A stretch of DNA of 34,074 nucleotides from a gamma proteobacterium symbiont of Ctena orbiculata (GTDB lineage: Bacteria; Pseudomonadota; Gammaproteobacteria; Chromatiales; Chromatiaceae), in the NCBI GenBank assembly GCA_003094555.1, contig NATW01000087.1, positions 1 through 34,074 on the forward strand. The letters are read 5' to 3'. Of this stretch, positions 9,682-27,775 are shown piece after piece; position 1 is the stretch's first letter, and each line of letters starts with the position of its first letter. Both the position numbers and the translations under genes were made by a program. Under the pieces are notes generated by a model. The model ran no database searches, was not told the origin of the DNA, and saw only the letters and a program-made list of their open reading frames with translations.

Positions 9682-9742
9682 TTCGATTCACAGCCAAGTT
9701 TCACAGTCAACAAATTGTGACGATCTGTATTTTTATCCTGAC

Positions 9743-11610: not shown

Positions 11611-11636
11611 ACCCGCGTGTGGGGAGACACGCGGGT
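11611..11636 (-). terminator. Rho-independent terminator for the PKD multiheme cytochrome gene
   Basis: A perfect 10-bp stem (ACCCGCGTGT at 11611-11620 with ACACGCGGGT at 11627-11636) and a six-base loop. On the minus strand it is followed by TATTTTATCC, a U-rich tail. It lies 17 bases past the stop of the minus-strand cytochrome gene; convergent plus-strand transcripts would also meet it, though without a T-run. A near copy lies at 15005-15029. Confidence 0.7.
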
Positions 11637-14600: not shown

Positions 14601-14802
14601 TCAATATGGTCACATCCTGGTTTGTGGCACCTCCTCCCTTAACTTCAAGCCGATCTTTCCTGGAATCCCATTTTGCCCGATCGATATCGAAAACGGAGGG
14701 TCGCTTTGCGGCAAGAAGAGTGCTTGAAAAGCCGAAAATCAAAGCAGTGCAAAGCAGCAGATGCAAAGCTCTGCTGGATGGTCGTTTTGTACTGGTACCC
14801 AT
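11653..14802 (-). CDS. Nine-heme cytochrome c with PKD domains
   Basis: 1049 residues from the ATG ending at 14802, which has GGGGAGA eight bases upstream and opens a proper signal peptide (RALHLLLCTALIFGFSS); an upstream ATG at 14880 lacks this. After an Ig-like region (WDSRKDRLEVKGG) come two PKD domains (NGPYSAITG..WNFGDGN and NGPYDGMAG..WDFGDGN), a domain with NDLGMHCGDF and LPPFN, then nine CxxCH sites from about residue 590: CGACH, CQQCH, CYQCH, CQDCH, CGSCH, CEACH, CSTCH, CKACH and CVECH. It is thus exported and should bind nine c-type hemes; PKD domains suggest a cell-surface or extracellular position. A role in electron transfer at the outer surface is inference. A PmrA-type box lies 119 bases upstream. 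Confidence 0.92.
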   Translation of the reverse strand: MGTSTKRPSSRALHLLLCTALIFGFSSTLLAAKRPSVFDIDRAKWDSRKDRLEVKGGGATNQDVTILNAATGEVLGTVASGRDWRFKLTITDDAQVPCRVSAVRTSDGTTVEKDVSRAPSNCDDGSGDTPNEPPTAQANGPYSAITGSATDFSSAGSSDTDGTIDSYAWNFGDGNESSDTNPSHTYADPGTYTVTLTVTDNDGDSDSDSTTASVEDDQQPGNEPPTANANGPYDGMAGEAVSFTSAGSNDPENSALTYTWDFGDGNGSTEANPTHTYDAPDVYDVSLTVADADGLSDSDSTTATIQDDQPPPPASGVSINSTSQNGVPTGAAVSELQLINGNDYKVFAVNDLGMHCGDFDTRISSILPPFNVLHATVIQRGQEPNILGRDDGAEVYYSAASNPDDPILTGENSAGSGPVYSSRNPITGEVFKTNFWDVAREAYAPFYPAEPFFADGVLSLFYPDGPVADILDVGLPMPNVELFYLTSPGTLEADQQDMPGRDGPYLVNAEQKFEAYVVDQPFFINPAFQFGYVKEGVNWFEAPGIPVTAFDDDGRENPWPLYRVQAKVAGNVVASVDTVVPISGEANCGACHGAAEDGGNGTATGQLAYVASAFDDDPQYGVVPLEVSKEYAADLNLVRLHDLKHSDKYPEGFGTLEENTPVVCQQCHYTPALDLAQLGPLDGDVGTTANGRRQGNVKSMSNVMHSHHGSVTDGAGNKLFPDMPAAIKDEFGIVANHEERRQVLEETCYQCHPGRRTDCLRGAMSNGGMLCQDCHGDMEQVGDDFTRGVSPTTPGAFELGGDFYTNADQPRVPWANEPGCGSCHTGDAMSNLAGTAGTVVNPADADGNEDNIRLFQAFRSGDAKATPIVPTNKRFAENVIEADNPAVSGPNDPRIGNPMLYRVSTGHEGVFCEACHGSTHGIWPNKNELANDNVAAGQLQGHKGTIIECSTCHEGNLGDTLGGPHGMHPVGATSFADGGHASLVERNSDQCKACHGEDGLGTVLSRMATDRVLECDNRTSFCPDGNSAEFTKGYMVGCVECHENQINHD

Positions 14803-14892
14803 TGAAGAGATCTCCCCAGGTATAGCTGTGAATATGGCTAATACCAGACTGTAGCTGTAGGTGTTTTCCCTACTTTCCATTGCGGACTGGTG

Positions 14893-14937
14893 GCTATCGA
14901 GATCAAATTAGCAAGATTATATTAAGGTTTGCTTAAG
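14893..14937 (-). promoter_or_regulatory. PmrA-type response-regulator box and promoter of the PKD cytochrome
   Basis: Read on the minus strand: CTTAAG-CAAAC-CTTAAT (14937 to 14921), then 7 nt, TGCTAATTT (14913 to 14905), 6 nt, and a -10-like GATAGC (14898 to 14893). The box fits the YTTAAK-N5-YTTAAK consensus of PmrA/QseB-class regulators, with an 11-bp repeat period. The same layout occurs at 15198-15242 and 27556-27600. Confidence 0.65.
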
Positions 14938-14993
14938 GCAGGCTGGATGTGCTTCTCATTCAGATAATTTCCCTGCGCCAGGTCGCAAATTCA

Positions 14994-15191
14994 GATAAAA
15001 AAAACCCGCATGTGGGGAGGACACGCGGGCAAGGGTAAATCGACCAATCGTCTATGATTATTCGTAATATGCAAGCCGTTATATTGCCCGTTCAGGGTTT
15101 GTTAAAGTTCCCGCCATGTGCGAATCTAACGATTATCAATTTGATAATTTCTCTCCGATCCTGGCCGTTTTTTGTCTATAAAAATCAGAGA
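14994..15191 (-). ncRNA. Candidate small RNA between a PmrA-type promoter and a strong terminator
   Basis: The promoter at 15198-15242 predicts a start near 15191, and the terminator at 15005-15029 an end near 14994-15000, giving a transcript of about 190-200 nt on the minus strand. The only ORF seen is a 12-codon one without ribosome site. The early part contains the perfect palindrome ATTATCAAATTGATAAT (15134-15150). The segment next to the terminator resembles the 3' end of the PKD cytochrome gene, so a remnant of a deleted gene is the alternative reading. Confidence 0.35.
15005..15029 (-). terminator. Strong rho-independent terminator downstream of the histidine kinase
   Basis: Stem CCCGCATGT (15005-15013) with ACACGCGGG (15021-15029), one A-C mismatch, loop of seven bases. 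On the minus strand it is followed by eight T residues and ATC. It should end transcripts from the histidine kinase gene and from the promoter at 15198-15242. It is a near copy of the terminator at 11611-11636. Confidence 0.8.
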
Positions 15192-15197
15192 AATCGT

Positions 15198-15242
15198 CTT
15201 ATAGTATGTAAATTAGCAGGCGATAATTAAGATCTTCTTAAA
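15198..15242 (-). promoter_or_regulatory. PmrA-type box and promoter overlapping the 3' end of the histidine kinase gene
   Basis: On the minus strand: TTTAAG-AAGAT-CTTAAT (15242 to 15226), 7 nt, TGCTAATTT (15218 to 15210), 6 nt, and TATAAG as -10 (15203 to 15198), the best -10 of the three related promoters. The box overlaps the last codons and stop of the kinase gene. No gene lies directly downstream before the terminator at 15005-15029. Confidence 0.6.
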
Positions 15243-16579
15243 CAAGGAAAGAACAAATTCACAATTAAGCCACTACCCTGTTCAGGATTGCTGAGGGTGA
15301 TGGATCCTTGATGGATCTCGCAGATCTCCTTGACGATGGACAGGCCTAATCCTGCGCCCGCTTCGGTCTCACCGGGCAGACGATTGAGGCGTTCGAACAC
15401 CCATTTTTTCTTATCATCCGGAATGCCCTGTCCCTGATCTTCCACAATCAGGAGCACACCGTCCCCTACCCGGTCAATTTTGATCGTGACACTACTCTTG
15501 TTGGGAGTGAATTTGATGGCGTTGCTGACAAGATTGTTGAGTAATATTCCAATCAACTCCCGATTACCTTGCATGGTGACCGATTCACTGCACTCCAGTG
15601 CCATTTCGATATCTTTACTCAATGCCTGCGGTGAAATGTCCGCCAGGGTCTCCTGCGCCAATGCCTCAAGATCCAGTTCGTTAAAACCATGACGAATCTT
15701 TTCCGGTTCGATGGAGGCCAGCACCAGTAATTGATTTATCACATGGTTGAGACGATTCAATCCTTTCTTGACCTGTGAGAAACCCGAGCTGCCCTTTTCC
15801 TCCTCAGATCCGTTTGTGCCCGACTGAAGCTGTACGAGCATACCCGCGATCGGTGTGCGTAACTCATGCGCCACATCCGCTGTAAAGCGGCTATTACGAT
15901 CGATGGATTGTTTCAATCTTGCCAATAGTCTATTCAGCTCATCCACCACTCCAGCAAACTCTTTGGGTACATGACTTGGCTGAATGGGATTGAGATGAGC
16001 ATAATCGCGTTCTCTGATCAGACGTGTCACCTCCCGCAACGGTTGCAAACCCTGATGCACGATAAGCCAGAGAATTCCCGACAAAGGTAGGGCGATCAAT
16101 AGCGGCCTGATGACATCCACAACGAAATCACGTGCCAATTGATGGCTTGTCAGATGGCTGCGGGCAACCTGTACCCGGAAATCATGATTTGTCAGGTTCA
16201 TGGTATAGACACGCCACATCTGACCATTTATATCGCTGTCTGTGTAACCATCAAGAATAGAACTGGACAACGGGAAATCAGGTGCTTCAGGGCCGCGTAT
16301 CATCAACCTGTCTTCATGGGACCAAACCTGAAACAGCAAAGGAAATGTATATTTGGATTCATTTAAGTCGGTTTGATACTCATCCAGGTCGAACTCTTCC
16401 GATTCGTGCTCGGTTGCAACCGCCAACAACTGGCCTACCAATGCCAATTCGGCATTGTAGACCTGGTTGATTTCACTGCTGGTTCGCCACCAGGTGAAAT
16501 AGAGGATCGTGCCCCATAACAGCAATGTCGAAATCAGTAACATCAGCAGCAGGCGCATGCTTAGGGAACGCACGATCAT
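15227..16579 (-). CDS. Sensor histidine kinase, QseC/PmrB-like class
   Basis: 450 residues; the ATG at 16579 has AAGGAG six bases upstream. Two membrane segments (about 10-30 and 160-180) enclose a periplasmic domain of about 130 residues rich in acidic residues (EHESEEFDLDEYQ). A HAMP region follows, then the HisKA box FTADVAHELRTPIAGM (phosphorylated histidine near residue 238), the N box LLNNLVSNAIKFTP, the D/F box VEDQGQGIPDD and the G box GAGLGLSIVKEI. All catalytic motifs are intact. It should sense an envelope signal and phosphorylate the regulator encoded upstream at 16885-17577. A gap of 305 bases separates the two genes, unusual for a pair. The signal is unknown; acidic sensor domains of PmrB type often meet metals, which is only suggestive. 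Confidence 0.92.
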   Translation of the reverse strand: MIVRSLSMRLLLMLLISTLLLWGTILYFTWWRTSSEINQVYNAELALVGQLLAVATEHESEEFDLDEYQTDLNESKYTFPLLFQVWSHEDRLMIRGPEAPDFPLSSSILDGYTDSDINGQMWRVYTMNLTNHDFRVQVARSHLTSHQLARDFVVDVIRPLLIALPLSGILWLIVHQGLQPLREVTRLIRERDYAHLNPIQPSHVPKEFAGVVDELNRLLARLKQSIDRNSRFTADVAHELRTPIAGMLVQLQSGTNGSEEEKGSSGFSQVKKGLNRLNHVINQLLVLASIEPEKIRHGFNELDLEALAQETLADISPQALSKDIEMALECSESVTMQGNRELIGILLNNLVSNAIKFTPNKSSVTIKIDRVGDGVLLIVEDQGQGIPDDKKKWVFERLNRLPGETEAGAGLGLSIVKEICEIHQGSITLSNPEQGSGLIVNLFFPCLRRS

Positions 16580-16884
16580 CTATAACTCCTTTGCACGGTG
16601 ATACTTCAGGACACTGAATCCATCTATTCCTACCCAGCCGGTTCGCTACCTGCTAATTCAAAAATGAGCCTGAAACCGCTTCCAATCACCATCTGCAACA
16701 TAACAATCAGCACATGGCAGGAACTGAAAACAAGGAAAAATCGAGTTTTCGATTCATCCATGCTCAACACAGTAAGATACATTGCTGAGATATCGAATCA
16801 GGAATGGCTATCAGACCAGAGACCTGATGTTAACCAAGTCGCTTATGGACAGGAACACGAAGCTTTCTGAAATTCTACGATAAA
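16580..16884. other. 305-bp gap between response regulator and histidine kinase genes
   Basis: No supported gene. A plus-strand frame at 16598-16870 (90 codons) has no family resemblance, no good ribosome site, and runs antisense to a region between co-directional genes. It could hold a leader, a separate kinase promoter or the remains of a deleted segment. No hairpin terminator was recognised. Confidence 0.5.
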
Positions 16885-17577
16885 CTAGCGTCTTGCTGAT
16901 CCACCCATGGGTTTTTCTATGACGTACCCCACTCCCCTCACGGTGCGTATCGGGTGTTCTCCCAATTTTTTTCGTAGATGATGGATATGGACCTCGATGG
17001 CATTGCTTTCAACATCGTCATCCAGACAGTAGACCTTTTCGCTCAGCTTCCTGCGCGACATGACCCGTCCCATGTTTTCCATCAGACTCTGGAGAATATC
17101 GAACTCCTTCACCGATAGTGACACTTCATCATTTTGAATGGTTACCGTATGGGCCGAAGGATCCAGCACCAAATCACCGTGACGCAGAATCTCTTCTTCC
17201 AGACCGCTGTGGCGACGGTGCAGCGCGCGAATACGTGCACACAACTCCTCGATATCGAATGGTTTGACCACATAGTCATCAGCACCGCCGTCCAGTGCCT
17301 GGACGCGGTCGACAACCTCTGAACGTGCCGTCAACACAAGCACGGGTATCTGATTTCCCTCCGCTCGCAGACGCGCCAAGACCTCCAAGCCGGAGAGCCA
17401 CGGAATGTTCAGATCCAACAGCAGAACATCATAGCGGACACTCTTCAAGGACTGCATGGCACTGAGACCGTCGCGCACCCAGTCAATGGCTAATCCACGC
17501 CGTTCGAGTACGGTCTGGATACCATCACCTAGCATTTCATCGTCTTCTACAAGCAGCAAATTTATTCCACTTGTCAT
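16885..17577 (-). CDS. OmpR/PhoB-family response regulator, PmrA/QseB-like class
   Basis: 230 residues from the ATG at 17577, preceded by GGGGGA (TTT-poor spacer of three to five bases); a longer frame from 17613 adds 12 residues without benefit. The receiver has the acidic pair VEDDEM, the phosphorylated Asp in LLLDLNIPWLSG (near residue 52), the Thr in LVLTAR and the Lys in YVVKPFD. The C-terminal winged helix shows SVKEFDILQSLMENMGRVMSR, NAIEVHIHHLRKKLG and the hairpin VRGVGYVIEKP. This subclass typically binds direct hexamer repeats of the CTTAAK type. Three such boxes occur in this window, upstream of both cytochromes and after the kinase. No such box was seen upstream of this gene. Confidence 0.92.
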   Translation of the reverse strand: MTSGINLLLVEDDEMLGDGIQTVLERRGLAIDWVRDGLSAMQSLKSVRYDVLLLDLNIPWLSGLEVLARLRAEGNQIPVLVLTARSEVVDRVQALDGGADDYVVKPFDIEELCARIRALHRRHSGLEEEILRHGDLVLDPSAHTVTIQNDEVSLSVKEFDILQSLMENMGRVMSRRKLSEKVYCLDDDVESNAIEVHIHHLRKKLGEHPIRTVRGVGYVIEKPMGGSARR

Positions 17578-17913
17578 AGATCCCCCACGCAACAATTTTG
17601 TATGCCTGGCCATTCAGGTGTAAGCGCTGCTACGCCCACCTCGCCTCAGTCGGTTATTCTCCTGTTTGCGCTGCTCCGTTTCTGCTGAGTCTCATTCACT
17701 ATAGATCAGACTCAATAGCTGATTGATCGGTCTAGCTGGACTCTATAATTGGGAATTATATACCAATTTCACCCAATACCAGAAGTTTATTGTTTCGATT
17801 TTAGACGCATTTAACGAATTCCATTCCTCAATGCCCGCGCCAGGACTTGACAGCTACCAAGCTGGGTAATGTTTGTTATTGATTTTAATACAAAAAGTTG
17901 GCAGATATAGCTT
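17578..17913. other. Intergenic region upstream of the response regulator
   Basis: 336 bases without a credible gene. It contains the inverted repeat AATTGG-N10-CCAATT (17747-17768) in an AT-rich context, and a small hairpin CAGCT-ACCA-AGCTG (17851-17864). The promoter of the regulator gene probably lies here on the minus strand, and the end of the 17914-18267 gene is at the other side, also reading minus. I could not fix a -10/-35 pair. Confidence 0.4.
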
Positions 17914-18267
17914 TTAGACAAGCAGAAAGAAGGCCACAGCGGCAGCGGTTACCAGACTGATAGTGGTGGGCAGGGTCACCAGCATGTCACCGGAACCCAG
18001 CATCAGGTAGGCGGTCTCCACCACCAATATGGCCATGGCGACGCCCAGCGCCCGTGGTGTTTCCAACCAACGGGTAACGCCGGCCAGTGAAATGAAGGCC
18101 AATCCCAGCAGGGCGGCCCCCATCATGCCCGCGAAGGCCTGATTGACCGGCTCAACACTGAAATAACCCGCAATCAGGTGGGGATCGACGATCAGGATCA
18201 CTCCCCACACACTCAACATCACGATAGCGAGAACAAGAGAAAGACGCTGCAGCACCCGGTTAGGCAT
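17914..18267 (-). CDS. Small integral membrane protein, four predicted membrane segments
   Basis: 117 residues from the ATG at 18267 with GGGGAT just upstream; a TTG at 18279 would add four residues. Hydrophobic segments lie at about 9-28 (LVLAIVMLSVWGVILIV), 45-64 (MMGAALLGLAFISLAG), 72-92 (ALGVAMAILVVETAYLML) and 97-117 (ISLVTAAAVAFFLLV). The short loop between segments 1 and 2 has DPHLIAGYFSVEP. I do not recognise the family with confidence; small DUF4345-like proteins have a similar layout. No functional link to the neighbours is visible. Confidence 0.7.
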   Translation of the reverse strand: MPNRVLQRLSLVLAIVMLSVWGVILIVDPHLIAGYFSVEPVNQAFAGMMGAALLGLAFISLAGVTRWLETPRALGVAMAILVVETAYLMLGSGDMLVTLPTTISLVTAAAVAFFLLV

Positions 18268-18382
18268 GGCTATCCCCAAAATATCTTTTATTTATCATGC
18301 GAATATAGAGAATTTCTCGACCAATTACAAAACACTTTAGTTTAATTTTGAATTTTCAATTCACAATCCCCCCCTATCAACA

Positions 18383-18433
18383 GTTCTCCTAATGTTCTAC
18401 AATCTATGTCACCATGAAGAACATTTGGAGAAC
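18383..18433 (+). promoter_or_regulatory. Two facing LexA-type operators upstream of the lexA-like gene
   Basis: Box A is GTTC-TCCTAAT-GTTC (18383-18397). Box B is GAAC-ATTTGGA-GAAC (18419-18433), the same GTTC-N7-GTTC motif in the opposite orientation. Together they form an imperfect 19-bp inverted repeat (16 of 19 bases). A TACAAT -10-like hexamer lies between them at 18398-18403. The GTTC-N7-GTTC form is the LexA box of Alphaproteobacteria, not the CTGT-N8-ACAG box of most Gammaproteobacteria. Confidence 0.75.
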
Positions 18434-18438
18434 TCAAT

Positions 18439-19035
18439 ATGCTAACCCCTACCCAGGACCGCACCCTGAGCTTCATCCGCCGCTACCTGAAGAGGCGGGG
18501 ATACGCCCCCTCGCTGATTGAGATTGCCGAAGGCATAGGTATCACTTCCAAAGGCACCGCCCATCGCCACGTACAGGCCCTGGCCGAGGCGGGCGCGATA
18601 CGCCTGATCACCGGGCGTAAGCGCGGCATCGAGCTGGTGGACGAGGAGGCGCTGTCGAAAACCAGCCTGCCCCTGCTGGGCCGCATCGCAGCGGGCCAGC
18701 CCATCGAGGCCATCGCCGGTCAGGACCGCCTCGAGCTGAACGACCTGTTCGGCCCCAACCGCTACGCCCTGCAGGTGAAGGGGGACTCCATGATCGACGC
18801 CGGCATCCTCGATGGCGACCTGGCGGTGATCGAACGCTGCGACACCGCCGACGACGGCGCCATCGTGGTGGCCCTGATCGACGACGAGGAGGCCACTCTG
18901 AAGCGCCTCAGACGTCTCAAGAGCGGCCGTATCAAGCTGATCGCCGAGAACCCCGGCATCCCCCCCATGATCTATGCGGCAAAGCGGGTGAGGATCCAGG
19001 GGGTGTTGGTGTGTCAGCTGAGACGCTACAAGTGA
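18439..19035 (+). CDS. lexA: LexA-family SOS repressor / autopeptidase
   Basis: 198 residues, the usual LexA length. The N-terminal winged helix-turn-helix (residues 1-65) begins MLTPTQDRTLSFIRRYLKRR and includes the recognition region TSKGTAHRHVQAL. A peptidase S24 domain follows. The self-cleavage site is Ala85-Gly86 in GRIAAGQP, the catalytic serine is Ser117 (KGDSMID) and the lysine Lys155 (EATLKRL), all at positions matching Escherichia coli LexA. It should therefore be cleaved on RecA activation. The recognition helix differs from that of gammaproteobacterial LexA, in keeping with the unusual GTTC-N7-GTTC operators just upstream, which imply autoregulation. It is followed by a Y-family polymerase and an SRAP-like gene, each separated by a repeat, forming a damage-inducible cassette. 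Confidence 0.92.
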   Translation: MLTPTQDRTLSFIRRYLKRRGYAPSLIEIAEGIGITSKGTAHRHVQALAEAGAIRLITGRKRGIELVDEEALSKTSLPLLGRIAAGQPIEAIAGQDRLELNDLFGPNRYALQVKGDSMIDAGILDGDLAVIERCDTADDGAIVVALIDDEEATLKRLRRLKSGRIKLIAENPGIPPMIYAAKRVRIQGVLVCQLRRYK

Positions 19036-19041
19036 ATGGGA

Positions 19042-19159
19042 AGTTTTGAGTTATGAGTTTTTAGTTTTGAGTTGCGGTGTTCGCTTCGCTCACGTTGGAT
19101 AAAAAACGTGTGCGTAGCACACTCATCAACTCAAAACTCATAACTAAAAACTCAAAACT
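19042..19159. repeat. ACTCAAA-type intergenic repeat, copy 4
   Basis: The clearest full copy. The left arm is 19042-19073 (starting AGTTTTGAGTTATGAG), the core pair is GTGTTCGCTTCGCTCACG (19077-19094) and CGTGTGCGTAGCACACTC (19107-19124), and the right arm is 19128-19159. It begins seven bases after the lexA stop and ends 11 bases before the polymerase ATG. The order of ACTCATA and ACTAAAA units in the right arm is swapped relative to a true inverse of the left arm. Confidence 0.85.
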
Positions 19160-19170
19160 CTTGAGCAATC

Positions 19171-20436
19171 ATGTATATCGACGACACCCTCCCCCACACC
19201 CACTGGTCCCGCGCCATGATCCTGGTGGACATGAACGCCTTCTTCTGCAGCGTGGAGCAGATCGACCACCCGGAGCTGCAGGGACGCCCCATCGGTATCA
19301 CCAATGGCGCCCAGGGGACCTGCATCATCACCTGTTCCTATGAGGCCCGCGCCTATGGCGTGCATACCGGCATGCGTCTGAAAGAGGCCCAGCGGATCTG
19401 TCCCGGGTTTGTCCAGGTGCCGGCCCATCCGGAACGCTATGCCCAGGTCTCCACCCGCATCATGGAGGCACTCTCCAGCATCACCCCGGACATGGAGATC
19501 TTCTCCGTGGACGAGGCCTTCCTCGACATCACCCATTGCCAACGCCTGCTCGGTACCCCGCAACGGATCGCCCGGCAGGTCAAGCAGACGGTGCTGGAGG
19601 CCTCCGGGGGGGTGCTCTGCTCGGTGGGGGTCAGCGGCGACAAGACCAGCGCCAAGTACGCCGCCAAACTCAACAAACCCGACGGCCTGACCATTATCCC
19701 CCCCGGTACCGCGCAGCAGACCCTCGCCAAGGTGCCGGTCACCGAGTTGTGCGGTATCGCCAAGGGCATCGGCCGCTACCTGGCGGAACGGGGCGTCTAT
19801 ACCTGTGGCGACATGTGCCGCCTGCCCATCGGCGAGATCGGACGCCGTTTCGGCAACCCGGGGCGGCGTATCTGGCTGATGACCCAGGGACTCGATCCCG
19901 ACCCGGTGCACAGTGAGGTCGATGCGCCGAAATCCATCGGCCATGGCAAGGTCATGCCCCCCGACACCCGCCGGCGGGAGGTGATCGAAACCTTCCTCCT
20001 GCATATGGCGGAAAAGGTGGCCACCCGGCTGCGCCTGCACCATTTCCGCGCCAGCCACTTCTACATCGGGGTGCGTATCGACGCGGGCTATCTGGCCCGC
20101 AAATACCGTTGCAACCCGCCCACCGACCACGGCCCGGAGATCGTCGCCATGTGTCAGGACTTCCTCGACCACCACTGGGCCGGCCAGGGCTGCCACCAGG
20201 TGCAGATCACCGCCCTGGATCCCAGGTACGCCGACTACCAGTTCGACTTCCTGCAGCCGAACCATCAGCGCCAGGACCGCCTCAACCAGGCCATGGACCA
20301 TATCAACCAGCGCTACGGTGAATTCGCCCTGGCCCCCGTGCGCCTGCTGAACCGCTCGAAAATGCCGAATGTCATCGCCCCGGCGTGGAAGCCGTTTGGG
20401 CATAGGGAAACGATACTGATGAGTTGTGAGTTATGA
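19171..20436 (+). CDS. Y-family DNA polymerase (DinB/UmuC-type), SOS translesion synthesis
   Basis: 421 residues. The palm catalytic carboxylates are present: LVDMNAFFCSVEQ (Asp near residue 20) and SVDEAFLDIT (Asp-Glu near 110). SVGVSGDKTSAKYAAKLNKP and the helix-hairpin-helix thumb (VTELCGIAKGIGRYLAERG) are typical, as is the little-finger domain around SIGHGKVMPP and VATRLRLH. A possible beta-clamp-binding motif QFDFL is near residue 371. It lies between lexA-like and SRAP-like genes and is likely under the same LexA control. The C-terminal residues SCEL and the stop codon are encoded by the left arm of repeat copy 5, so the original end may have been changed. Its closest subgroup (Pol IV or a plasmid-type UmuC) is not settled. 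Confidence 0.9.
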   Translation: MYIDDTLPHTHWSRAMILVDMNAFFCSVEQIDHPELQGRPIGITNGAQGTCIITCSYEARAYGVHTGMRLKEAQRICPGFVQVPAHPERYAQVSTRIMEALSSITPDMEIFSVDEAFLDITHCQRLLGTPQRIARQVKQTVLEASGGVLCSVGVSGDKTSAKYAAKLNKPDGLTIIPPGTAQQTLAKVPVTELCGIAKGIGRYLAERGVYTCGDMCRLPIGEIGRRFGNPGRRIWLMTQGLDPDPVHSEVDAPKSIGHGKVMPPDTRRREVIETFLLHMAEKVATRLRLHHFRASHFYIGVRIDAGYLARKYRCNPPTDHGPEIVAMCQDFLDHHWAGQGCHQVQITALDPRYADYQFDFLQPNHQRQDRLNQAMDHINQRYGEFALAPVRLLNRSKMPNVIAPAWKPFGHRETILMSCEL

Positions 20437-20586
20437 GTTATGAGTTTTTAGTTTTAAGCGGTGACGCTCGCTGCGCTCACAACGCTTTGGTCCCCTCACC
20501 CTACCCCTCTCCCCAAAGGAGAAGAAAAAAAACCGTGAGCCCAGCGAACACCAAAACTAAAAACTCAAAACTAAAAACTCAAAACT
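20422..20586. repeat. ACTCAAA-type intergenic repeat, copy 5, with a nested CCCTCACCCTA element
   Basis: Left arm 20422-20456 and right arm 20553-20586. The core contains GGTGACGCTCGCTGCGCTCA (20460-20479) and CCGTGAGCCCAGCGAACACC (20533-20552). Nested at 20491-20520 is a stretch starting TCCCCTCACCCTACCCCTCT, similar to a repeat common between genes in many proteobacteria. The left arm overlaps the last codons of the polymerase gene. Confidence 0.8.
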
Positions 20587-20603
20587 CCTTGGCACGCTAA
20601 GCC

Positions 20604-21020
20604 ATGTGCACCGCCGTCCACTACACCCTCAACGGCCAGGAGTTCCGTACCAAGTTCCCCACCCCTGGGGCCTGCCTACCGGTGAGAAACAGGCAGGGTG
20701 GCGCCGAACTGCTGCCCTGGGGGCGGCGCAAACATCAGCTTGGGAAACTGCCGCTGGGGGGCTGGGCCAGGCTCGACGCCATCTATAGCGGACGCTGGGA
20801 CCGCTGGCGGCCGATTCCGGTAAAGCTGCTGGTCAGCCAGTTCATGGAGGTGGACATGGAGGGCGCCAGCCACTGGTTCGATGTCACCCCGGGGAAATGG
20901 ATCCAGGGCCTGGTGGCCCGCTGGGAACAGGAGCGGCGCATCTACGTGGTCACCATCACCCCGGAGATGGAGGATGCCGCCTACGAACGCTGGCCGCGCA
21001 TACTCAGCTACCGGGGGTGA
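20604..21020 (+). CDS. Short SRAP-like (YedK/HMCES-type) protein in the SOS cassette
   Basis: 138 residues, shorter than typical SRAP proteins (about 200-230). It starts MCTAVHY, giving Cys2, the residue that HMCES/YedK links to abasic sites in single-stranded DNA. ARLDAIYSGRWDRW resembles the NARAETxxxxPxFR block, SQFMEVD the catalytic glutamate segment, and AAYERWPRIL the closing HDRMPxIL block. The usual asparagine and the histidine of HDRMP are replaced (tryptophan and tyrosine). It may bind abasic-site DNA without all of the classical chemistry, or be a distinct subfamily. Its position behind lexA and a Y-family polymerase supports a DNA-damage task. Its last 137 bases before the stop are duplicated at 22061-22197. 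Confidence 0.68.
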   Translation: MCTAVHYTLNGQEFRTKFPTPGACLPVRNRQGGAELLPWGRRKHQLGKLPLGGWARLDAIYSGRWDRWRPIPVKLLVSQFMEVDMEGASHWFDVTPGKWIQGLVARWEQERRIYVVTITPEMEDAAYERWPRILSYRG

Positions 21021-21356
21021 TCATAGGTGAAGACTTGCCGCTGATGGTTGCAAATAGATAGGCCAAGGGGCATGTTGCGAAAACGGTCAATCTGATTCAT
21101 ATCCTGCTGCGCGAGGCCCTGGAGGAGTAGCTCGAAGGGGTTACACCAGGCGCGGCGCCGGCGCGCCATTCTGTAACCCCCGCAGCGGGGTTACACCTGG
21201 CCGGGCCTCGAGGCCGGGATCTGTGACCCTCCGCTAGTCAGCACTAGGCACATTGCAACCGACCATTGATGATTTAAAAGCCGGCTATCAACCTTGCTCA
21301 ACGGGATTGAACGCAAATAGATATGGCAACAGAAGCTTTGCGAGACGCCTCCACGT
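21021..21356. other. Gene-poor stretch between SRAP-like gene and toxin-antitoxin pair
   Basis: No intact gene seen. From 21044 a frame reads MVANR, stop, then AKGHVAKTVNLIHILLREAL, a possible broken remnant of a small helical protein that I cannot identify. Two palindromic units occupy 21137-21230. The rest (21231-21356) shows nothing recognisable. Confidence 0.5.
21137..21230. repeat. Tandem pair of GC-rich palindromes (REP-like)
   Basis: Unit 1 (21137-21180) has ends GGGGTTACA and TGTAACCCC, a perfect 9-bp inverted repeat with an inner GGCGCG/CGCGCC. Unit 2 (21187-21230) has GGGGTTACA and TGTGACCCT (7 of 9) with the inner palindrome GGCCTCGAGGCC. Both units are exactly 44 bases and six bases apart. 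The outer ends are conserved while the inner stems differ. Confidence 0.65.
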
Positions 21357-21647
21357 TCATGCCGCCTCGGACTCCACGGTTATTTTCACGTGACATCCAA
21401 CTTTTGCGAGCATCTGTACCAGTCTATCGATGGAACATTTATCGATACGTCCCTTCATGACATCACTGATGCGTGGCTGAGTCGTATCCATCAGTTCGGC
21501 AGCTTCTCTTTGGTAGAGACCCTTTTCCTCGATATAGCGACGAACCTCAAGCATGAGTTGTGCCCGCAGTCTGAGGTTTTCGCTATCCTCCAATCCCAGT
21601 TCTTCGAATATGTTTGCCCCTGCCGGGGTAACGTGTTCAATGCTCAT
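21357..21647 (-). CDS. higA: XRE-family antitoxin, HigA-like
   Basis: 96 residues. The helix-turn-helix is visible in LYQREAAELMDTTQPRISDV followed by MKGRIDKCSIDRLVQMLAKVG, the form seen in HigA-type (HTH_37) antitoxins that follow Gp49-like toxins. The start ATG at 21647 overlaps the stop of the toxin gene (ATGA), so translation is coupled and the order is toxin first, as in higBA. It should neutralise the toxin and, with it, repress the operon through the palindrome at 21979-22000. Confidence 0.87.
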   Translation of the reverse strand: MSIEHVTPAGANIFEELGLEDSENLRLRAQLMLEVRRYIEEKGLYQREAAELMDTTQPRISDVMKGRIDKCSIDRLVQMLAKVGCHVKITVESEAA

Positions 21648-21970
21648 GACTTCCTCGCTCGCATCAACTCACGGAATCTATCCTTTGCCATTTGAATGTC
21701 AGCATTCGATGTCTTTTGAGTCTTTTTCTCAAAAGCATGCAAAACATAAACACCTTCTTCGAACTTGGCTATGTAAAGCACCCTGTATTCACCCTCGGTG
21801 TGCAAGCGAACTTCCCGGACACCCGAGCCAATGATTTTCATCGGCTTCCAATCATCAGGCTCGAAGCCTTGCTGAAGAAGATGCAGTTGATAACCGGCAG
21901 CCTGTTTTACGGCTTTCGGCCAATTGCCAACTACCTTGTAACTAGTACCAATCCATAGCAATTGCTTCAT
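21644..21970 (-). CDS. higB: RelE/HigB-type toxin, phage Gp49-like family
   Basis: 108 residues from the ATG at 21970 (MKQLLWIGTSYKV), which is where Gp49-like toxins normally begin; an ATG at 21988 adds six residues but lies inside the likely operator. Family features are KAVKQAAGYQLHLLQQG, the MKIIGSGVREVRL strand and YRVLYIAKFEEGVYVLHAFEKK, with the closing helix AKDRFRELM. Members are ribosome-dependent mRNA endonucleases. The stop overlaps the antitoxin start. The pair is encoded against the SOS cassette and is enclosed by the duplicated SRAP 3' sequence, so it probably arrived as a module. Confidence 0.86.
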   Translation of the reverse strand: MKQLLWIGTSYKVVGNWPKAVKQAAGYQLHLLQQGFEPDDWKPMKIIGSGVREVRLHTEGEYRVLYIAKFEEGVYVLHAFEKKTQKTSNADIQMAKDRFRELMRARKS

Positions 21971-21978
21971 CTTCTCAG

Positions 21979-22000
21979 AATATATCATTTTTGATATATT
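21979..22000 (-). promoter_or_regulatory. Palindromic operator of the toxin-antitoxin operon
   Basis: AATATATCA-TTTT-TGATATATT, a perfect 9-bp inverted repeat with a four-base spacer. It covers the alternative toxin start at 21988 and sits just upstream of the preferred start at 21970. Such palindromes are usual binding sites for HigA-type antitoxins. Confidence 0.6.
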
Positions 22001-22060
22001 TTCAAAGATAAAACAGCCGCTTTCAATGGATAACAGTGGCCAGGAAATGTGTCTGCCGCC

Positions 22061-22197
22061 GGTTCGATGTCACCCCGGGGAAATGGATCCAGGGCCTGGT
22101 GGCCCGCTGGGAACAGGAGCGACGCGTCTATGTGGTCACCATCACCCCGGAGATGGAGGATGCCGCCTACGAACGCTGGCCGCGTATACTCAGCTAC
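22061..22197 (+). pseudogene. Duplicated 3' fragment of the SRAP-like gene
   Basis: 137 bases match 20875-21011 with four differences (about 97 percent), three of them silent in the shared reading frame. The frame is open from a GTG at 22036 to a stop ending at 22224, giving up to 62 residues, but the N-terminal half with Cys2 is missing and the last residues differ. I take it as a non-functional fragment left by duplication or recombination around the toxin-antitoxin pair. Confidence 0.8.
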
Positions 22198-22262
22198 AGC
22201 GCAAGCCGCACCATAGACGATTAAAAACACCGAGTTTGCGTTTATTCGCGTTCACCAGCGGC

Positions 22263-23702
22263 CTATTCGACAAGTGCCTTCATCTCCTCGAGGATGATGC
22301 GGGCGCGCTCAGGATTTTGCTCCATCTCCCTGCTCTTGGCGGCGATCCACTGCGCCTCCTCCTGCATCAATCGATTCAGGTTCTCCTCATAGACCACCAC
22401 TGGATAATCCTGTTTGCGCAGTCCAACCACATAGTCGTTGAGGCGCTCCTTGAGCAACAGCCGACGGGTCTGTTGCTGGGTATCGGGATCTTCGATATCG
22501 GTATATTTCGACGCCCTTTGGTCGGTTATACGTAGAATATGCCAACCGGCCGGGGTCTCCACCGGGCCTCCCAGTTCACCGATCTCAAGGGCGAATGCCT
22601 CCTCGTCCAAGGCTGGAAAACCGCTGCCCTCCTCTACCCAGCCGAAGTCGCCCAGGGTCTGTTTTGCCCGGGGATCGATGGAGTGGTCGCGCGCCGCCTG
22701 GTAGAGGGTAAGCTCTCCCTTTTCCAGTTTTTCCATGATCTCCAGTGCCGTCTGCTCATCCTTCACCACCACCATCTGCAACTTGCGGTGTTCATTGAAG
22801 GTGATACCTTTTTTATGCTTTTCAAAATAGTCCCGTACCTCCTGCTCGGTCGGCTCCATGCCTTGCGCCAACGCCTTGCGATGTAGATTTACCAGGCGTG
22901 TGAGGCTGAATTCGGCCAGGGCGGCTTTAAAGTCAGGGCCCTGATCCAACCCCGCTTGACGCCCCTTTTTCGCCAGCAGATAGTTGTCTATCAGACCGTT
23001 CAGGGTCTCCAGGCGTCGCTCGATGTTGATGGCGTTATTCAATGTGGCAAGGTACTTTTTGCTCTCGCCCCAGGTCATTGCAATGCCGTCGAATTCAGCG
23101 ATCACCTGATCATCACTACGTAGACTGTCCTCTTCGATATCGAGATGACGGGTGTGTATCTTCACGTCCATTCCGGCATGCAGATGTTTGCGCAAGCCCT
23201 GTTTGCGGGTGATATATTTTGCCTTTTTTACCTTTGCCTCGATCAGGGGGCGCAAGGTATCGTCCACCTCAATATCCTTGGCGAAGTGCTTTTTTACATA
23301 GCCATCGATCTCTTGCTCACTGATATCCTGGGCCGCCTTCAAATAGTGTCTGCGATAGAGTCCCGCCAACATGCCATCGGCGTAGGTCTGCAGCTCGCGC
23401 TTGAATACCGGATCCTCCTGCAGGCCCTTGCCGACACCATCCAGATAGAGCAGATTGACGCTGATCGCCTTGTCCAGCAGAGTCAACATGACGGTACGCC
23501 TTTCGGGCGTACCCAGGGCCGGCGTGGATAGACCCACCACGGCAGTGCTATTCAATTGGGTGTTCAGCTGGGAGAAGGTGACGATCCGATCGCCAACCCG
23601 GGCCAGGACATTGACATCGGATTGTGCCGGCTCAGCAGCCGTGTCGCCCCATGCTGAAGTGGCCAGAAGACAAGCGGCCATCAATGTTACAGGAATTCTC
23701 AT
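22263..23702 (-). CDS. Periplasmic parvulin-type peptidyl-prolyl isomerase (SurA/PpiC-like)
   Basis: 479 residues with a signal peptide (VTLMAACLLATSAWG). The N-terminal half is a helical chaperone-like region (VGDRIVTFSQLNTQL and following). The parvulin rotamase domain lies at about 300-400: HRKLQMVVVKDEQTALEIME, YQAARDHSIDP, LGDFGWVEEGSGFPALDEEAFAL and VETPAGWHILRI. It acts in the periplasm on folding of exported proteins. It is transcribed in the same direction as, and 200 bases after, the nine-heme cytochrome gene, with a thioredoxin-like gene on the other side of that cytochrome. A role as dedicated folding helper for the cytochrome, or for outer membrane partners, is a reasonable inference from context. 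Confidence 0.9.
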   Translation of the reverse strand: MRIPVTLMAACLLATSAWGDTAAEPAQSDVNVLARVGDRIVTFSQLNTQLNSTAVVGLSTPALGTPERRTVMLTLLDKAISVNLLYLDGVGKGLQEDPVFKRELQTYADGMLAGLYRRHYLKAAQDISEQEIDGYVKKHFAKDIEVDDTLRPLIEAKVKKAKYITRKQGLRKHLHAGMDVKIHTRHLDIEEDSLRSDDQVIAEFDGIAMTWGESKKYLATLNNAINIERRLETLNGLIDNYLLAKKGRQAGLDQGPDFKAALAEFSLTRLVNLHRKALAQGMEPTEQEVRDYFEKHKKGITFNEHRKLQMVVVKDEQTALEIMEKLEKGELTLYQAARDHSIDPRAKQTLGDFGWVEEGSGFPALDEEAFALEIGELGGPVETPAGWHILRITDQRASKYTDIEDPDTQQQTRRLLLKERLNDYVVGLRKQDYPVVVYEENLNRLMQEEAQWIAAKSREMEQNPERARIILEEMKALVE

Positions 23703-23902
23703 TTTGCCTCCGAATGACCTGTTCCAGCCAACTGTTTGCTACATCGGCGATAGGACAGGTCTTTGGATATTTATAATCGTTGAATGATGCTACTCACCCT
23801 AAAAATGGCTGACGACCGCGAAGCGATTGGGAGGGGAGACCGAGATCCCCCCTCCCAGATGCAACTGCCATCCGCCAATATGACAGCTGACCTTTCCGCC
23901 TG

Positions 23903-26900
23903 CTACCAACCGCAGGTGGAGCCGGTACGATCCTGGGAGACATGCTCCCAAACGCTTTCCGACACCCGGCCTTCTGAGAGGTGGAGCTTCCACTCCAGAC
24001 CATCCTCACCGTTACAGGCCACCTCTTGCCATTCATCATCATGGCAACCCTGACAGACGGTGTTGCGTGGATCCGTGGTACCGAATACCTCACCCGAAAT
24101 AAGTTCCTCCACCTGATCCATGGTCTTGCGCGATACCCGACCCTTCATGGCATGTTCCAGCCACTCGCCTTCTGAGGCACTGACTTCGTCGTTTTCGTTC
24201 TCATGACAGTTGACACAGAAGTCTTCACGGGGATCGTGATTATCGGTAAAGGTATGGGCCCAACTGACCGCCGCATCGAAGTCGCTGGCGATCGATCTGC
24301 CGTCGAAATGCATACCCTCGCCATTATCGCACTCACCACCATCTTCACCCGGCTCACAGACCCGTACAGGAATCTGGGCATCCACATTGTCGGCCAGGGT
24401 GTCGTACATATGACATGAACCACACTTCAGCGGACCGTGGCTGTCATCGCTGTTGAGATAGGCCGCCTGGGCATAGGTGGTGGCATCCACACCGTCCACA
24501 CCCGGTCCCTGCTCAAGATGGGGAGCGACCGGATAGAGGCCATGGATCGACTCATGACAACCCTGACAGGTGATGTCCCGATGACCGCGGGAGTATCGCA
24601 TCAGTCCAGCCTTGCGCGGATAGTTGAAGGGTGGATGGTCATTACCCGGTTGATGGCCACTCGGCTCCACATAGGGCGCGGTGTGACAATCGGCGCAATG
24701 GGGTTCGCCGGCAGCCAGCCAGTGGTCGCGTCCATCGGTTGCCGCCGAGAAGGGTACCGGGGCCGCCATCGATCCGCTCAGGGTCTGCTGGGCAGCGGTC
24801 ACACAGTCGTCGGTGGTACAGAAGTCCAGGATGCTGACACTGAAGTCCCCATCCCCATCGAAGCTGCCGCAGATCTGGAAATCCGCATTACCATCACCAT
24901 CACAATCGGGACCTGGTGCCGCTGCACCTGTGGTACATGCGCTGGCGTCACCAGCCACCTCAATGGTGGCCAACTTGGCGTCGATGGCCGGATCGGTACT
25001 GCCGCCCAGGTAGGCGCAGAGACCCGGATCACGGCGCCAGATGGCCATTGTCTCTTCCGAAGTACGAATTGCACCGTCCTCAGGGAACACATTGGGATCC
25101 CGAGGATCGAGCCAGTCCAGGGCCTGCTGTGTATCTACCCCAACTGCAGCGGCAATATCATCCAAGGAGGCCAGGGCGCGTATGTTGCTCGCCCCTGGAC
25201 CGGGTATGCCATCTATCAGGCTCTCCATGTTCTCTTTCTTCCAGATCTCCTGGCTCAACTGGTTGTGGCAGTTGGTGCACCAGATACCCCGGTCGTCGCG
25301 ATCGCTGCCCGCAAGACCCGCCTGATTACGGGAGACATTATCCCGCAACCATTCTCCAATGGCGGTCAAGTGTTCAGGGGTTCCCGCACCATCGATATCC
25401 TTGAATGGATTGGAGTGAACGTCACGGCCGACGAAACAGCCGCCCGCGCCCAGACGGTTATCCGTACTGGCATAGAAGTTGTCGCCACTTTCGGTAATAG
25501 GATAACCGGCCATGTCGCCATTGGAACGGTGAGCGGGATGACAGCCCTGGCAACCGCCGAAGCGGCCGAGACTGTCGCTGAAGGCGATGGGGCCACCCTC
25601 GCCGACACCGCGATGGGTCTGATGAATCGCCTCGGACATGGGCAGAATCACCTTGCTGCTCCCATCATCATCGGTGAACGATGCCGATTTGACCACCGCA
25701 ATGACATTGTCCGCATGGCAACGCTGGCAGAGCACGGTGGTATTCCCGATACGGGTGCTCTGGGCGAATACGGGACGATTGTTCTCCGCCGACAGATCGG
25801 CGGCCAGTGCATCGCACTCCGCCGGTGTGCCGCAGGCCGGGTAGTTGTCCAGGAATCCAGTACCCTGGTTCTTGTCATGCAGACCGAGAATACTGATGGC
25901 GGCACTCTTGAGGCGCGGATACCAATCCGAGTCGCCTGGCCCTATGTTGTAATAACTCATCCAGAAGTTATATTCCTGCTGAACCTTGGACCAGATCTCA
26001 TCACCGCTCTTATGGGGTGAATTGGTGGTATCCACCTCTGAGTGGCAACGTTCGCAGTTGGGGATATCGATGGGCGCGGTGCCGAATCCCTCCACCGGCG
26101 TGCCATTCTGCAGCACCGGATCACCCATACCGCCATAGGCATTCTCATCGTAGTGACGCAACCTGGCCTTCATCGCCACGAAAGGACGTACCGAATCTTC
26201 GAACATCGCGCCCGGATCGGCAAAGAAATTGATGGAGTCCTCGAACGGGGTCAGGGGAAGCCCCAGGGCCTCCCAGATCCGTGGCGAGGTGAGGGTGATC
26301 GGCAGGTTCTCCAACACCTTCATCTGGGTATAGACAACGGTGCCGTGCTCGCCGGAGAAGGTCAGTACATTACCGTTGGAAGCGCCGCCGCAATCATTAA
26401 GTACAGCGGGATTGGTCGGTACGCCATCCGGGTGGGAGACCGGTCCCATCGGGTGCAGACCGGCACCGCAATCGTCCGGATACTCGATGTGGCCGGTTAC
26501 GCCAAGCCGGATCTTATCCGACTCAGCCGTCGAACCGGTGGGATTGGAGCCTTCCAGGTCGGCGTAGATATAGAGGTGATTCCAGACCGCATTCCAGTAG
26601 TCGTCGGTGGGATCATTGAAATCGCCGTCACCCAGCATGGCGCCGCTGACACCGTTCCAGGTCGGGTTGCCGTCTTGACCCGAGAGCACCAACGAACCGT
26701 CCGGATTGACCGCCGCGGAATCGGCGAGGGTGTTCCACATCAGCAGTGAATTACCCTCGGTGGCGCTGATCAGTGTCGAAGTCTGGGGTACGACGTTGGG
26801 ACGAGTTTCCCGTGGTTGTGCTTCATGCCAATACTCGAGGACATATTTCTGGAAATCCCCGTTTGCATCGAGATCGGGATCCCGCAGTACAGTCTGGCGT

Positions 26901-27352
26901 CCCAGGGCATCGAGACCTTCAGCGGGGTCCCCCTCCAGGAGTCGCGCAAAGGCTGTCTGGCCCTCATCACTCTGCTGCGTCTTCACAACCTGGGCCAGGA
27001 TCGAGTTATAAGGAGGCAGCACACAACAATAGGCGAACTCGAAACCGGTACAGTGCATACCAAGTTCATAATTCATCATGATGTTGAAGGTATTCTTAGG
27101 ACGCAGCGCCAGGCCGTTGCCACCACCACCTTCGGAATTACCCTCTTCGGAACCATTCTCATCTTTAGAACTGCTACTGTCCTCTTCCTTACTGCTTTCA
27201 CTACTCCTTTCTTCTTTTTCGTAGCGGTCCTCCTCCTCATCACCATCACTCGCCCAGGTATTACCCATGGCTACAACCGACATGAGGATGAATGAAATCG
27301 CGTATGTTACGAAGCGATAAGTTTTATTGGATAGTAATTGATTGCACTTCAT
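23903..27352 (-). CDS. Nine-heme cytochrome c with acidic serine-rich linker
   Basis: 1149 residues from the ATG at 27352, with GGAGGAG seven bases upstream; a TTG two codons earlier is possible. The signal peptide runs to about residue 34 (FILMSVVAMGNTWAS). A highly acidic, serine-rich low-complexity stretch (about 36-80) follows. Near residue 96 NYELGMHCTGF and LPPYN repeat the domain seen in the PKD cytochrome. Nine CxxCH sites begin near residue 433: CERCH, CQRCH, CQGCH, CTNCH, CADCH, CQGCH, CGSCH, CVNCH and CQGCH. A calcium-type DxDGDGxxD stretch lies between sites 4 and 5. An exported nine-heme electron carrier is clear; surface exposure and substrate are not. It is flanked by thioredoxin-like and PPIase genes and has a PmrA-type promoter 232 bases upstream. 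Confidence 0.92.
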   Translation of the reverse strand: MKCNQLLSNKTYRFVTYAISFILMSVVAMGNTWASDGDEEEDRYEKEERSSESSKEEDSSSSKDENGSEEGNSEGGGGNGLALRPKNTFNIMMNYELGMHCTGFEFAYCCVLPPYNSILAQVVKTQQSDEGQTAFARLLEGDPAEGLDALGRQTVLRDPDLDANGDFQKYVLEYWHEAQPRETRPNVVPQTSTLISATEGNSLLMWNTLADSAAVNPDGSLVLSGQDGNPTWNGVSGAMLGDGDFNDPTDDYWNAVWNHLYIYADLEGSNPTGSTAESDKIRLGVTGHIEYPDDCGAGLHPMGPVSHPDGVPTNPAVLNDCGGASNGNVLTFSGEHGTVVYTQMKVLENLPITLTSPRIWEALGLPLTPFEDSINFFADPGAMFEDSVRPFVAMKARLRHYDENAYGGMGDPVLQNGTPVEGFGTAPIDIPNCERCHSEVDTTNSPHKSGDEIWSKVQQEYNFWMSYYNIGPGDSDWYPRLKSAAISILGLHDKNQGTGFLDNYPACGTPAECDALAADLSAENNRPVFAQSTRIGNTTVLCQRCHADNVIAVVKSASFTDDDGSSKVILPMSEAIHQTHRGVGEGGPIAFSDSLGRFGGCQGCHPAHRSNGDMAGYPITESGDNFYASTDNRLGAGGCFVGRDVHSNPFKDIDGAGTPEHLTAIGEWLRDNVSRNQAGLAGSDRDDRGIWCTNCHNQLSQEIWKKENMESLIDGIPGPGASNIRALASLDDIAAAVGVDTQQALDWLDPRDPNVFPEDGAIRTSEETMAIWRRDPGLCAYLGGSTDPAIDAKLATIEVAGDASACTTGAAAPGPDCDGDGNADFQICGSFDGDGDFSVSILDFCTTDDCVTAAQQTLSGSMAAPVPFSAATDGRDHWLAAGEPHCADCHTAPYVEPSGHQPGNDHPPFNYPRKAGLMRYSRGHRDITCQGCHESIHGLYPVAPHLEQGPGVDGVDATTYAQAAYLNSDDSHGPLKCGSCHMYDTLADNVDAQIPVRVCEPGEDGGECDNGEGMHFDGRSIASDFDAAVSWAHTFTDNHDPREDFCVNCHENENDEVSASEGEWLEHAMKGRVSRKTMDQVEELISGEVFGTTDPRNTVCQGCHDDEWQEVACNGEDGLEWKLHLSEGRVSESVWEHVSQDRTGSTCGW

Positions 27353-27775
27353 AACCAAACTCCTCCACTTGCCTGTATGGTTTCAAGTACTCGCAGGGTG
27401 TCAATCCTGGCGGTCTTGTGGTGTTGTTGTTATTGCATACTGCTTGCAATGATCCCCCGACCAATAGCTGCCACTGACTCGTGTGTTAATTCCATCTAAT
27501 TGTTTTTATGCACTTTTTGTCCGACATCACAGAGACGGCATTTATTAATTTGGGCAGGTTATCCCAAAAAGTAGCAAAGCAAGATTAAGAGTGACTTAAG
27601 ATGAAGTGATGATTGGGAAATTTATTCCCAGGTAGGTATTAATATGTGATCCAGTTCATATTCTTTTTTTATTGAGAAATCGACACGATATTTCACTTCA
27701 CATCCTCAACCCTCATTTTCGATGCGAGTGATCCCAAAGCTATTCAGCACAACATAGGAGGCTGCCAAACGCACC
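27353..27775. other. Intergenic region between TlpA-like gene and nine-heme cytochrome
   Basis: 423 bases. It contains the promoter described at 27556-27600. Next to it are two small inverted repeats: TTTGGG-N8-CCCAAA (27550-27567), which overlaps the -10 region, and TGGGAA-N5-TTCCCA (27614-27630), just upstream of the regulator box. No gene is seen. The remaining leader, about 200 nt before the cytochrome start, shows no riboswitch that I recognise. Confidence 0.5.
27556..27600 (-). promoter_or_regulatory. PmrA-type box and promoter of the second cytochrome
   Basis: On the minus strand: CTTAAG-TCACT-CTTAAT (27600 to 27584), 7 nt, TGCTACTTT (27576 to 27568), 6 nt, then TAACCT (27561 to 27556), or GATAAC two bases earlier, as a weak -10. 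The hexamers and the spacings equal those at 14893-14937 and 15198-15242. The predicted leader to the start at 27352 is about 200 nt. Confidence 0.62.

Follow-up and report, generated by a model that had tools for sequence, protein, structure and literature searches.

Two nine-heme cytochrome genes flank a two-component system

The window analysed here, a whole stretch of 34,074 nt from a symbiont of Ctena orbiculata that groups with Candidatus Thiodiazotropha, the lucinid clam symbionts, carries two nine-heme cytochrome genes with a two-component system between them, all on the minus strand. Cytochrome 1 (11653-14802; likely start ATG at 14802, within an open reading frame open from 14880) has nine CxxCH motifs, two PKD domains identified with Pfam and a signal peptide recognized by reading, and a terminator-like hairpin lies directly 3′ of it (11612-11635). 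Cytochrome 2 (23903-27352) likewise has nine CxxCH motifs and a signal peptide by reading. Upstream of cytochrome 1 are a QseC-like histidine kinase with 2CSK_N, HisKA and HATPase_c domains (15227-16579) and an OmpR/PhoB-family response regulator of the PmrA/QseB class (16885-17577; frame open from 17613). Beside the cytochrome-1 locus, positions 6332-11597 hold three genes resembling those of PhnD-type binding proteins and one GGDEF/EAL-like gene, all named by reading only; these genes recur in several relatives.

An envelope or surface location of the cytochromes is plausible, given the signal peptides, the PKD domains of cytochrome 1 and the lipobox-like N-termini seen in several distant homologues; signal peptides and PKD domains are compatible with surface exposure and are no proof of it. 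Nine CxxCH motifs were counted in 28 of the 30 tabulated cytochrome-1 homologues, the other two having eight (L190) and seven (L193). Similarity of the cytochromes to the Pfam family Mtrc-MtrF_II-IV_dom was weak and below cut-off, and when the sequences of solved structures were searched with cytochrome 1, only its PKD domains were matched convincingly. The MtrB/PioB porin of an MtrCAB-type conduit was not detected in the genome by a PF11854 (MtrB_PioB) search, for which no strong positive control was available, as none of 14 control genomes scored above cut-off either. The surface electron-transfer role suggested in the first-pass annotation stays a guess. Because of the missing porin match, and because a rhodanese-like exported protein belongs to the regulon of some relatives, "envelope redox regulon" is the furthest label that the evidence allows.

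Three exact PmrA-type sites lie in the window

Three minus-strand sites of uniform spacing had been reported in the first-pass annotation, and re-reading confirmed all three. The site at 15242 (P1) reads TTTAAG-aagat-CTTAAT, 7 nt, TGCTAATTT, 6 nt, TATAAG; the site at 14937 (P2) reads CTTAAG-caaac-CTTAAT, 7 nt, TGCTAATTT, 6 nt, GATAGC; and the site at 27600, upstream of cytochrome 2, reads CTTAAG-tcact-CTTAAT, 7 nt, TGCTACTTT, 6 nt, TAACCT. The box of P1 (15226-15242) overlaps the stop codon of the kinase gene, that of P2 (14921-14937) lies upstream of cytochrome 1 and has orthologous sites, and that of the cytochrome-2 promoter spans 27584-27600. Their description as PmrA-type agrees with the Salmonella PmrA box, given as CTTAAG-N5-NTTAAT in a report on that regulator (PMC3973317): P2 and the cytochrome-2 site match both half-sites, 5 bp apart, exactly, and P1 has TTTAAG as its first half.

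Exact boxes numbered three in the window versus 13 in total over 400 first-order Markov simulations of it (0.03 each), and the full 33-nt signature, YTTAAK-N5-YTTAAK-N7-TGCTANTTT, never arose in the same simulations. The first-pass annotation had proposed scanning the whole genome, and a scan of its 4.07 Mb (193 contigs) with the 33-nt form revealed no scatter of equally good matches: three were exact, all inside the window, one more had two mismatches, and the reversed pattern had no match anywhere in the genome. The box alone gave 14 matches at 12 places (two palindromic places being counted twice) versus six for its reversed control; since this is only about a twofold excess, the discriminating signal is the box together with the spaced TGCTANTTT. 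The three sites are genuine, exact and far above chance expectation.

A putative extended -10 element follows each box

A hexamer 6 nt beyond TGCTA(A/C)TTT had previously been read as -10-like, a reading that the comparison did not bear out. The three hexamers (TATAAG, GATAGC and TAACCT) are mutually unlike, and over 54 distinct related sites from six groups, weighted by group, their six columns carry 0.05-0.37 bits, comparable to flanking DNA, versus 1.6-2.0 bits per column for the TTAA cores and GCTA..TT. As the 54 sites were gathered by pattern, the half-sites and GCTA..TT are to some extent bound to look conserved; no pattern included the hexamer columns, and their non-conservation is therefore unbiased. 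The motif TGCTAnnTT, 10 bp after the box, would itself be the -10 and fits the extended form TGN-TAnnnT, in which the T of the TG is kept at about half of the weight and the G and C mostly. The extended -10 would thus comprise TGC plus TAATTT in P2 (14905-14913, with the hexamer at 14910-14905) and in P1 (15210-15218), and TGC plus TACTTT in the cytochrome-2 promoter (27568-27576). We take the C at -13 to be reminiscent of sigma-S promoters.

This layout corresponds to that described for PhoB: in E. coli its boxes are followed after 10 bp by a TAN3T/A -10 (PMC1906773), and strict spacing is reported as important for its promoters (PMC10294691). As in class II promoters of the OmpR/PhoB family, the box stands 10 bp upstream of a TAN3T -10 and a -35 is lacking; scanning 14700-15500 by consensus yielded no sigma-70 promoter, which is the expectation for an activator-dependent promoter. 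The -35 of PmrA promoters is placed at half-site 1 (PMC4660055), and in the window promoters it would likewise fall there. As CTTAAG reads identically on both strands, the repeat takes its direction from the second half-site and the -10, not from half-site 1.

A palindrome, TTTGGG-N8-CCCAAA (27549-27568, minus strand), touches or just follows the cytochrome-2 -10. It is exact in 10 of the 11 genomes that have cytochrome 2, occurs once in this genome, and also precedes the small exported protein of genome G018. Its rarity is uninformative alone, as the reversed control occurs at 1-4 places per genome; its fixed place is informative, and it is possibly a repressor operator. Positions 27645-27658, some 50 bp upstream from the cytochrome-2 box, read TGAACYKGNTCACA, which is mostly conserved among relatives and altered in G007; a similar sequence, CTGNTCACACTTT, is present in promoters of the small exported protein.

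The sites mark a probable regulon across the genus

With a relaxed model, TTAAK-N6-TTAAK-N8-GCTANNTT with one mismatch allowed, 92 sites were found in 22 genomes of the genus, which form a non-independent sample, versus four for the reversed pattern. Six recurring target groups account for 88 of the 92, and three of the four sites outside them are one orthologous sequence. The cytochrome-1 position contributes 24 sites, one in each of the 22 genomes plus the extra P1 in both genomes of this species, and these sites are weaker in one clade (G005, G018, G014 and G015). A family of 156-residue proteins has 20 sites, a small exported protein 17, cytochrome 2 11, a rhodanese-like exported protein nine (one of them, in L282, at a contig end that hides the gene) and a QseB-like paralogous regulator seven, of which those in G001 and G003 lie about 590 nt upstream of the gene. 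Cytochrome 2 is present in 11 of the 22 genomes and has the site upstream in every one. The small exported protein, which belongs to no Pfam family, occurs at 21 places in 20 of the 22 genomes, 17 of them with the site; the places without a full site are an incomplete copy (L239) and divergent ones in three species (L246-L248), where L246 has box-like half-sites but no matching -10.

This genome has six sites, and the regulon is accordingly wider than the pair of cytochromes originally proposed. Besides the three in the window, sites precede the small exported protein (C116:40863-40895), the 156-residue protein (C119:40919-40951) and the paralogous regulator (C89:32064-32095).

Two further observations concern the small exported protein. 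In 14 of its 17 promoters with a site, a second, weaker box (for example CTTAAT-N5-CTTAAC) stands exactly 51 bp upstream of the main box (L229, L230, L234-L238, L240-L245 and L249). At L141 (7146-9142, oriented), the neighbourhood of the small exported protein includes genes for a 413-residue one-heme protein and a two-heme cytochrome, which both lie upstream of the site; the first 150 residues of the one-heme protein have no Pfam match, and we take the protein to be reminiscent of cytochrome-porin fusions.

The site tracks the regulator-kinase pair beyond the genus

Of 50 loci with cytochrome-1 homologues, 41 were assessed, a pair being scored when regulator and kinase lay within 3.5 kb upstream and gene starts outside the 30-homologue table being estimates. 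L183 and L185, which have too little upstream DNA, and L174, L175, L176, L180, L191, L192 and L196 were left out; several of these start at a contig end, and L176 shows no site close to the gene. Sites that fit a relaxed form without mismatch were found at 16 of the 16 homologues with the pair versus one of the 25 without it, with the qualification that 14 of the 16 belong to one genus and to the same genomes as the genus survey, the other two being tubeworm symbionts. The one exception, L167, has a site, and no regulator is encoded in the 4 kb available upstream. L202 has no pair and a site with one mismatch, and its genome yielded one match and one control match when one mismatch was allowed. 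Second cytochrome-1 paralogues in the same genus (L161 and L162) have neither pair nor site. Sites, spacing, conservation and co-occurrence with the regulator-kinase pair are directly observed.

The tubeworm symbionts of Escarpia laminata (L168) and Lamellibrachia barhami (L173) share the regulator-kinase-cytochrome block and its site, even with strongly diverged proteins (regulator 58% and kinase 40-41% identical). With one mismatch allowed, three tubeworm-symbiont genomes had two matches each, and one of these genomes had one reversed-control match. One site lies before cytochrome 1 and the other before a secreted protein (L226-L228) that is homologous to the small exported protein (31% identity over 103 residues; pairwise BLASTP 1.5e-14; HHalign probability 96.8). 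A Sedimenticola genome had no site at one mismatch, and among 35 sampled genomes outside the genus, seven had matches, all with two mismatches (16 versus five for the reversed control).

At L199, a Chromatiaceae locus with a cytochrome-1 homologue, the DNA upstream of 9569 reads TTTCAG-N5-TTTCAG-N7-CGCTAGGGT, and a distant regulator-kinase pair lies downstream of the homologue; this is perhaps the same promoter design with another half-site.

The neighbouring regulator has a PmrA-like recognition helix

The regulator class and the adjoining kinase named in the first-pass annotation were borne out by domain and family searches. Response_reg and Trans_reg_C both scored above cut-off in the regulator, whose top NCBIfam ranks were QseB, PmrA and TctD, and the top rank of the kinase was QseC, all below the equivalog cut-offs. 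Against the PmrA equivalog NF007928 the regulator scored 223 bits (cut-off 330) and against the QseB equivalog NF007663 233 bits (cut-off 345), and the kinase scored 235 bits against the QseC equivalog NF007664 (cut-off 475), so that none qualifies as an orthologue by this measure. In PmrA, Asn188 and Asn196 are described as contacting bases and Thr187, Val192 and His195 as making hydrophobic contacts (PMC4660055), and a docking model led to the proposal that His193 and His195 determine specificity (PMC3973317). The window regulator keeps Asn188, Val192, His193 and His195 and has His in place of Asn196: its helix reads EVHIHHLR, that of PmrA EVHIHNLR, and those of the tubeworm symbionts EVHIHNLR or EVHVHNLR. 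The regulator was found in all 22 genomes of the genus at 83-100% identity, being split by a contig end in G012. Reported stops had suggested a dead regulator in G019 and G006; these precede the true start and the gene is open throughout, and the suggestion was rejected. Two species, at L110 and L111, have an orphan regulator, the gene being open and the sites kept with the kinase and cytochrome 1 lost.

A second regulator of this class, 47-52% identical, is present in 16 of the 22 genomes; in this one it is the QseB-like paralogue at G000:C89:32181-32837, 51% identical to the neighbour. Since its gene has an upstream site of this type in seven genomes, the paralogue could share or own the sites, and its recognition helix is similar (EVYIHHLR here, EVYVHHLR in G010). 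That the sites belong mainly to this paralogue, or to both regulators, nevertheless seems unlikely to us. Six of the 22 genomes lack a paralogue at 47-52% identity (E <= 1e-45; three have only 41-42% matches and three none), and all six keep the cytochrome-1 site, one of them, G007, having five sites. Moreover, the site tracks the neighbouring regulator-kinase pair, tubeworm symbionts included, and His193 of PmrA, kept in the neighbour, is Tyr in the paralogue. The missing paralogues and the PmrA-like helix residues together favour control by the neighbouring regulator, although both regulators may share binding.

P1 is probably a leftover promoter

P1 probably drives no intact gene and is a leftover of a deleted cytochrome-1 copy, as judged from the loci of relatives. 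About 180 nt separate it from an intrinsic terminator (15004-15030), and this stretch (15031-15209), which holds no intact gene, is a probable remnant of such a copy. The terminator hairpin or a close form of it stands directly 3′ of the cytochrome-1 stop codon in eight of nine relatives other than the two genomes of this species; the ninth, G005, has another hairpin there. In the window, a hairpin of this kind follows P1 and a second one follows the present cytochrome 1. At L107, cytochrome 1 is gone and its last codons remain between site and hairpin, and at L110 and L111 only remnants of the kinase and of cytochrome 1 are left. The simplest history would be a tandem promoter-cytochrome-terminator copy whose first cytochrome was lost, leaving P1 behind. 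Too little of the remnant's interior sequence survives to prove this history: in eight comparisons of the stretch with cytochrome-1 ends or remnants, each against 500 shuffles, only the G019 remnant beat all, four others (G012, G007, G004 and G011) fell at 0.01 to 0.05 and the remaining three at >= 0.18. Because nucleotide similarity is weak, the remnant reading rests on position, the terminator and the L107 case, with L110 and L111.

Alternatively, P1 might still work as the promoter of a small regulated RNA, some 180-200 nt long, that terminates at 15030-15004; this, too, we hold to be improbable. Box, extended -10 and terminator are all intact, and only five of 179 positions from P1 to the terminator differ between the two genomes of the species, but identity within a species is little informative here. 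The stretch has no Rfam match at the gathering threshold, its folding z-score is -1.5 without the terminator, and the codons left at L107 point to deletion. As the terminator in relatives belongs to cytochrome 1, the small-RNA reading ranks second to that of a leftover promoter.

A model for control of the cytochromes

Taken together, in sulfur-oxidizing symbionts of clams and tubeworms a single promoter layout of exact spacing very probably places large nine-heme cytochromes and a small exported protein under the control of a PmrA/QseB-related two-component regulator. With good confidence, we regard the sites as operator-plus-core-promoter units of a PmrA/QseB-class activator, most likely the neighbour at 16885-17577, with P2 and the promoter at 27600 driving the cytochromes. 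The QseC-like kinase would phosphorylate this regulator, which would then bind both half-sites head to tail, at the -35 place without a -35 consensus, and hold RNA polymerase on the extended -10 TGC-TAnnTT exactly 10 bp downstream. Cytochrome 1 would be driven from P2 and cytochrome 2 from the 27600 promoter, and any transcript begun at P1 would end at the terminator (15030-15004); elsewhere in this genome, promoters of this design precede the small exported protein, the 156-residue protein and the second QseB-like regulator. We infer binding, phosphorylation, activation rather than repression, and the remnant history from these patterns.

The central proposal of the first-pass annotation, control of both cytochromes by the neighbouring system, thereby gains strong, sequence-based backing from the co-occurrence of pair and site and from the site found before cytochrome 2 in all 11 genomes that have it, whereas the 15242 promoter is likely a leftover and the regulon is wider than proposed. 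Counted against the model are the loss of the kinase at L110 and L111, which keep regulator and sites; the presence of the paralogue in 16 of 22 genomes, with a site before its gene in seven; and L167, L246-L248, the weaker sites of one clade and the roughly twofold excess of the box alone. It is very improbable that the pattern is merely a common sigma-70 promoter form or a chance likeness with no dedicated regulator, for although the -10 part is ordinary by itself and the box alone only about doubles its reversed control in this genome, the 92 sites versus four, the six recurring target groups and the absence of the site at 24 of 25 homologues without the regulator pair argue otherwise.

Multiheme cytochromes are common in the genomes of uncultured bacteria, but the factors that switch them on have seldom been identified. 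For the clam and tubeworm symbionts, which are investigated chiefly by genome sequencing, a promoter signature here exposes a small regulon in its entirety and opens the regulator, its targets and an exported protein outside any Pfam family to direct tests in a surrogate host. The regulator class, the box and the promoter form have all been described before; neither the target set nor the lineage turned up in the open-access literature searched, where titles and abstract beginnings of work on Thiodiazotropha, Endoriftia, the PmrA box, QseB and multiheme cytochrome regulation revealed no paper on this regulon. As a tentative reading, to which we give somewhat less than an even chance, a PmrA/QseB-class system was recruited in the common ancestor of the clam and tubeworm symbionts to switch a dedicated envelope redox regulon (the nine-heme cytochromes, the exported protein without a Pfam family and the rhodanese-like exported protein), cytochrome 2 having a second, repressor-like operator, and tunes electron flow to conditions inside and outside the host.

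Comparison with known systems

The cytochromes resemble those of the MtrC/OmcA type in their weak, sub-cut-off Mtrc-MtrF_II-IV_dom similarity and in the lipobox-like N-termini of some distant homologues, and differ in that the genome has no MtrB_PioB match and no solved structure matched convincingly beyond the PKD domains. With PhoB class II promoters, as described in PMC1906773, the sites share tandem repeats placed 10 bp before a TAN3T -10 and the lack of a -35 consensus, whereas the half-site sequence differs. In NCBIfam, the regulator scores highest against QseB (233 bits) and the kinase against QseC (235 bits), and the 2CSK_N sensor domain is a further feature shared with QseBC, but both scores are far below the equivalog cut-offs (345 and 475), and by that test the proteins are not orthologues. 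As in PmrA/BasR of Salmonella and Klebsiella, the box is CTTAAG-N5-NTTAAT with head-to-tail half-sites, and Asn188, Val192, His193 and His195 of the recognition helix are kept, although the regulator reaches only 223 bits against the PmrA equivalog cut-off of 330. Enteric PmrA targets serve lipid A modification; the targets here, in contrast, are nine-heme cytochromes and small proteins, which suggests that a PmrA-type recognition code stayed nearly unchanged while its targets became entirely different.
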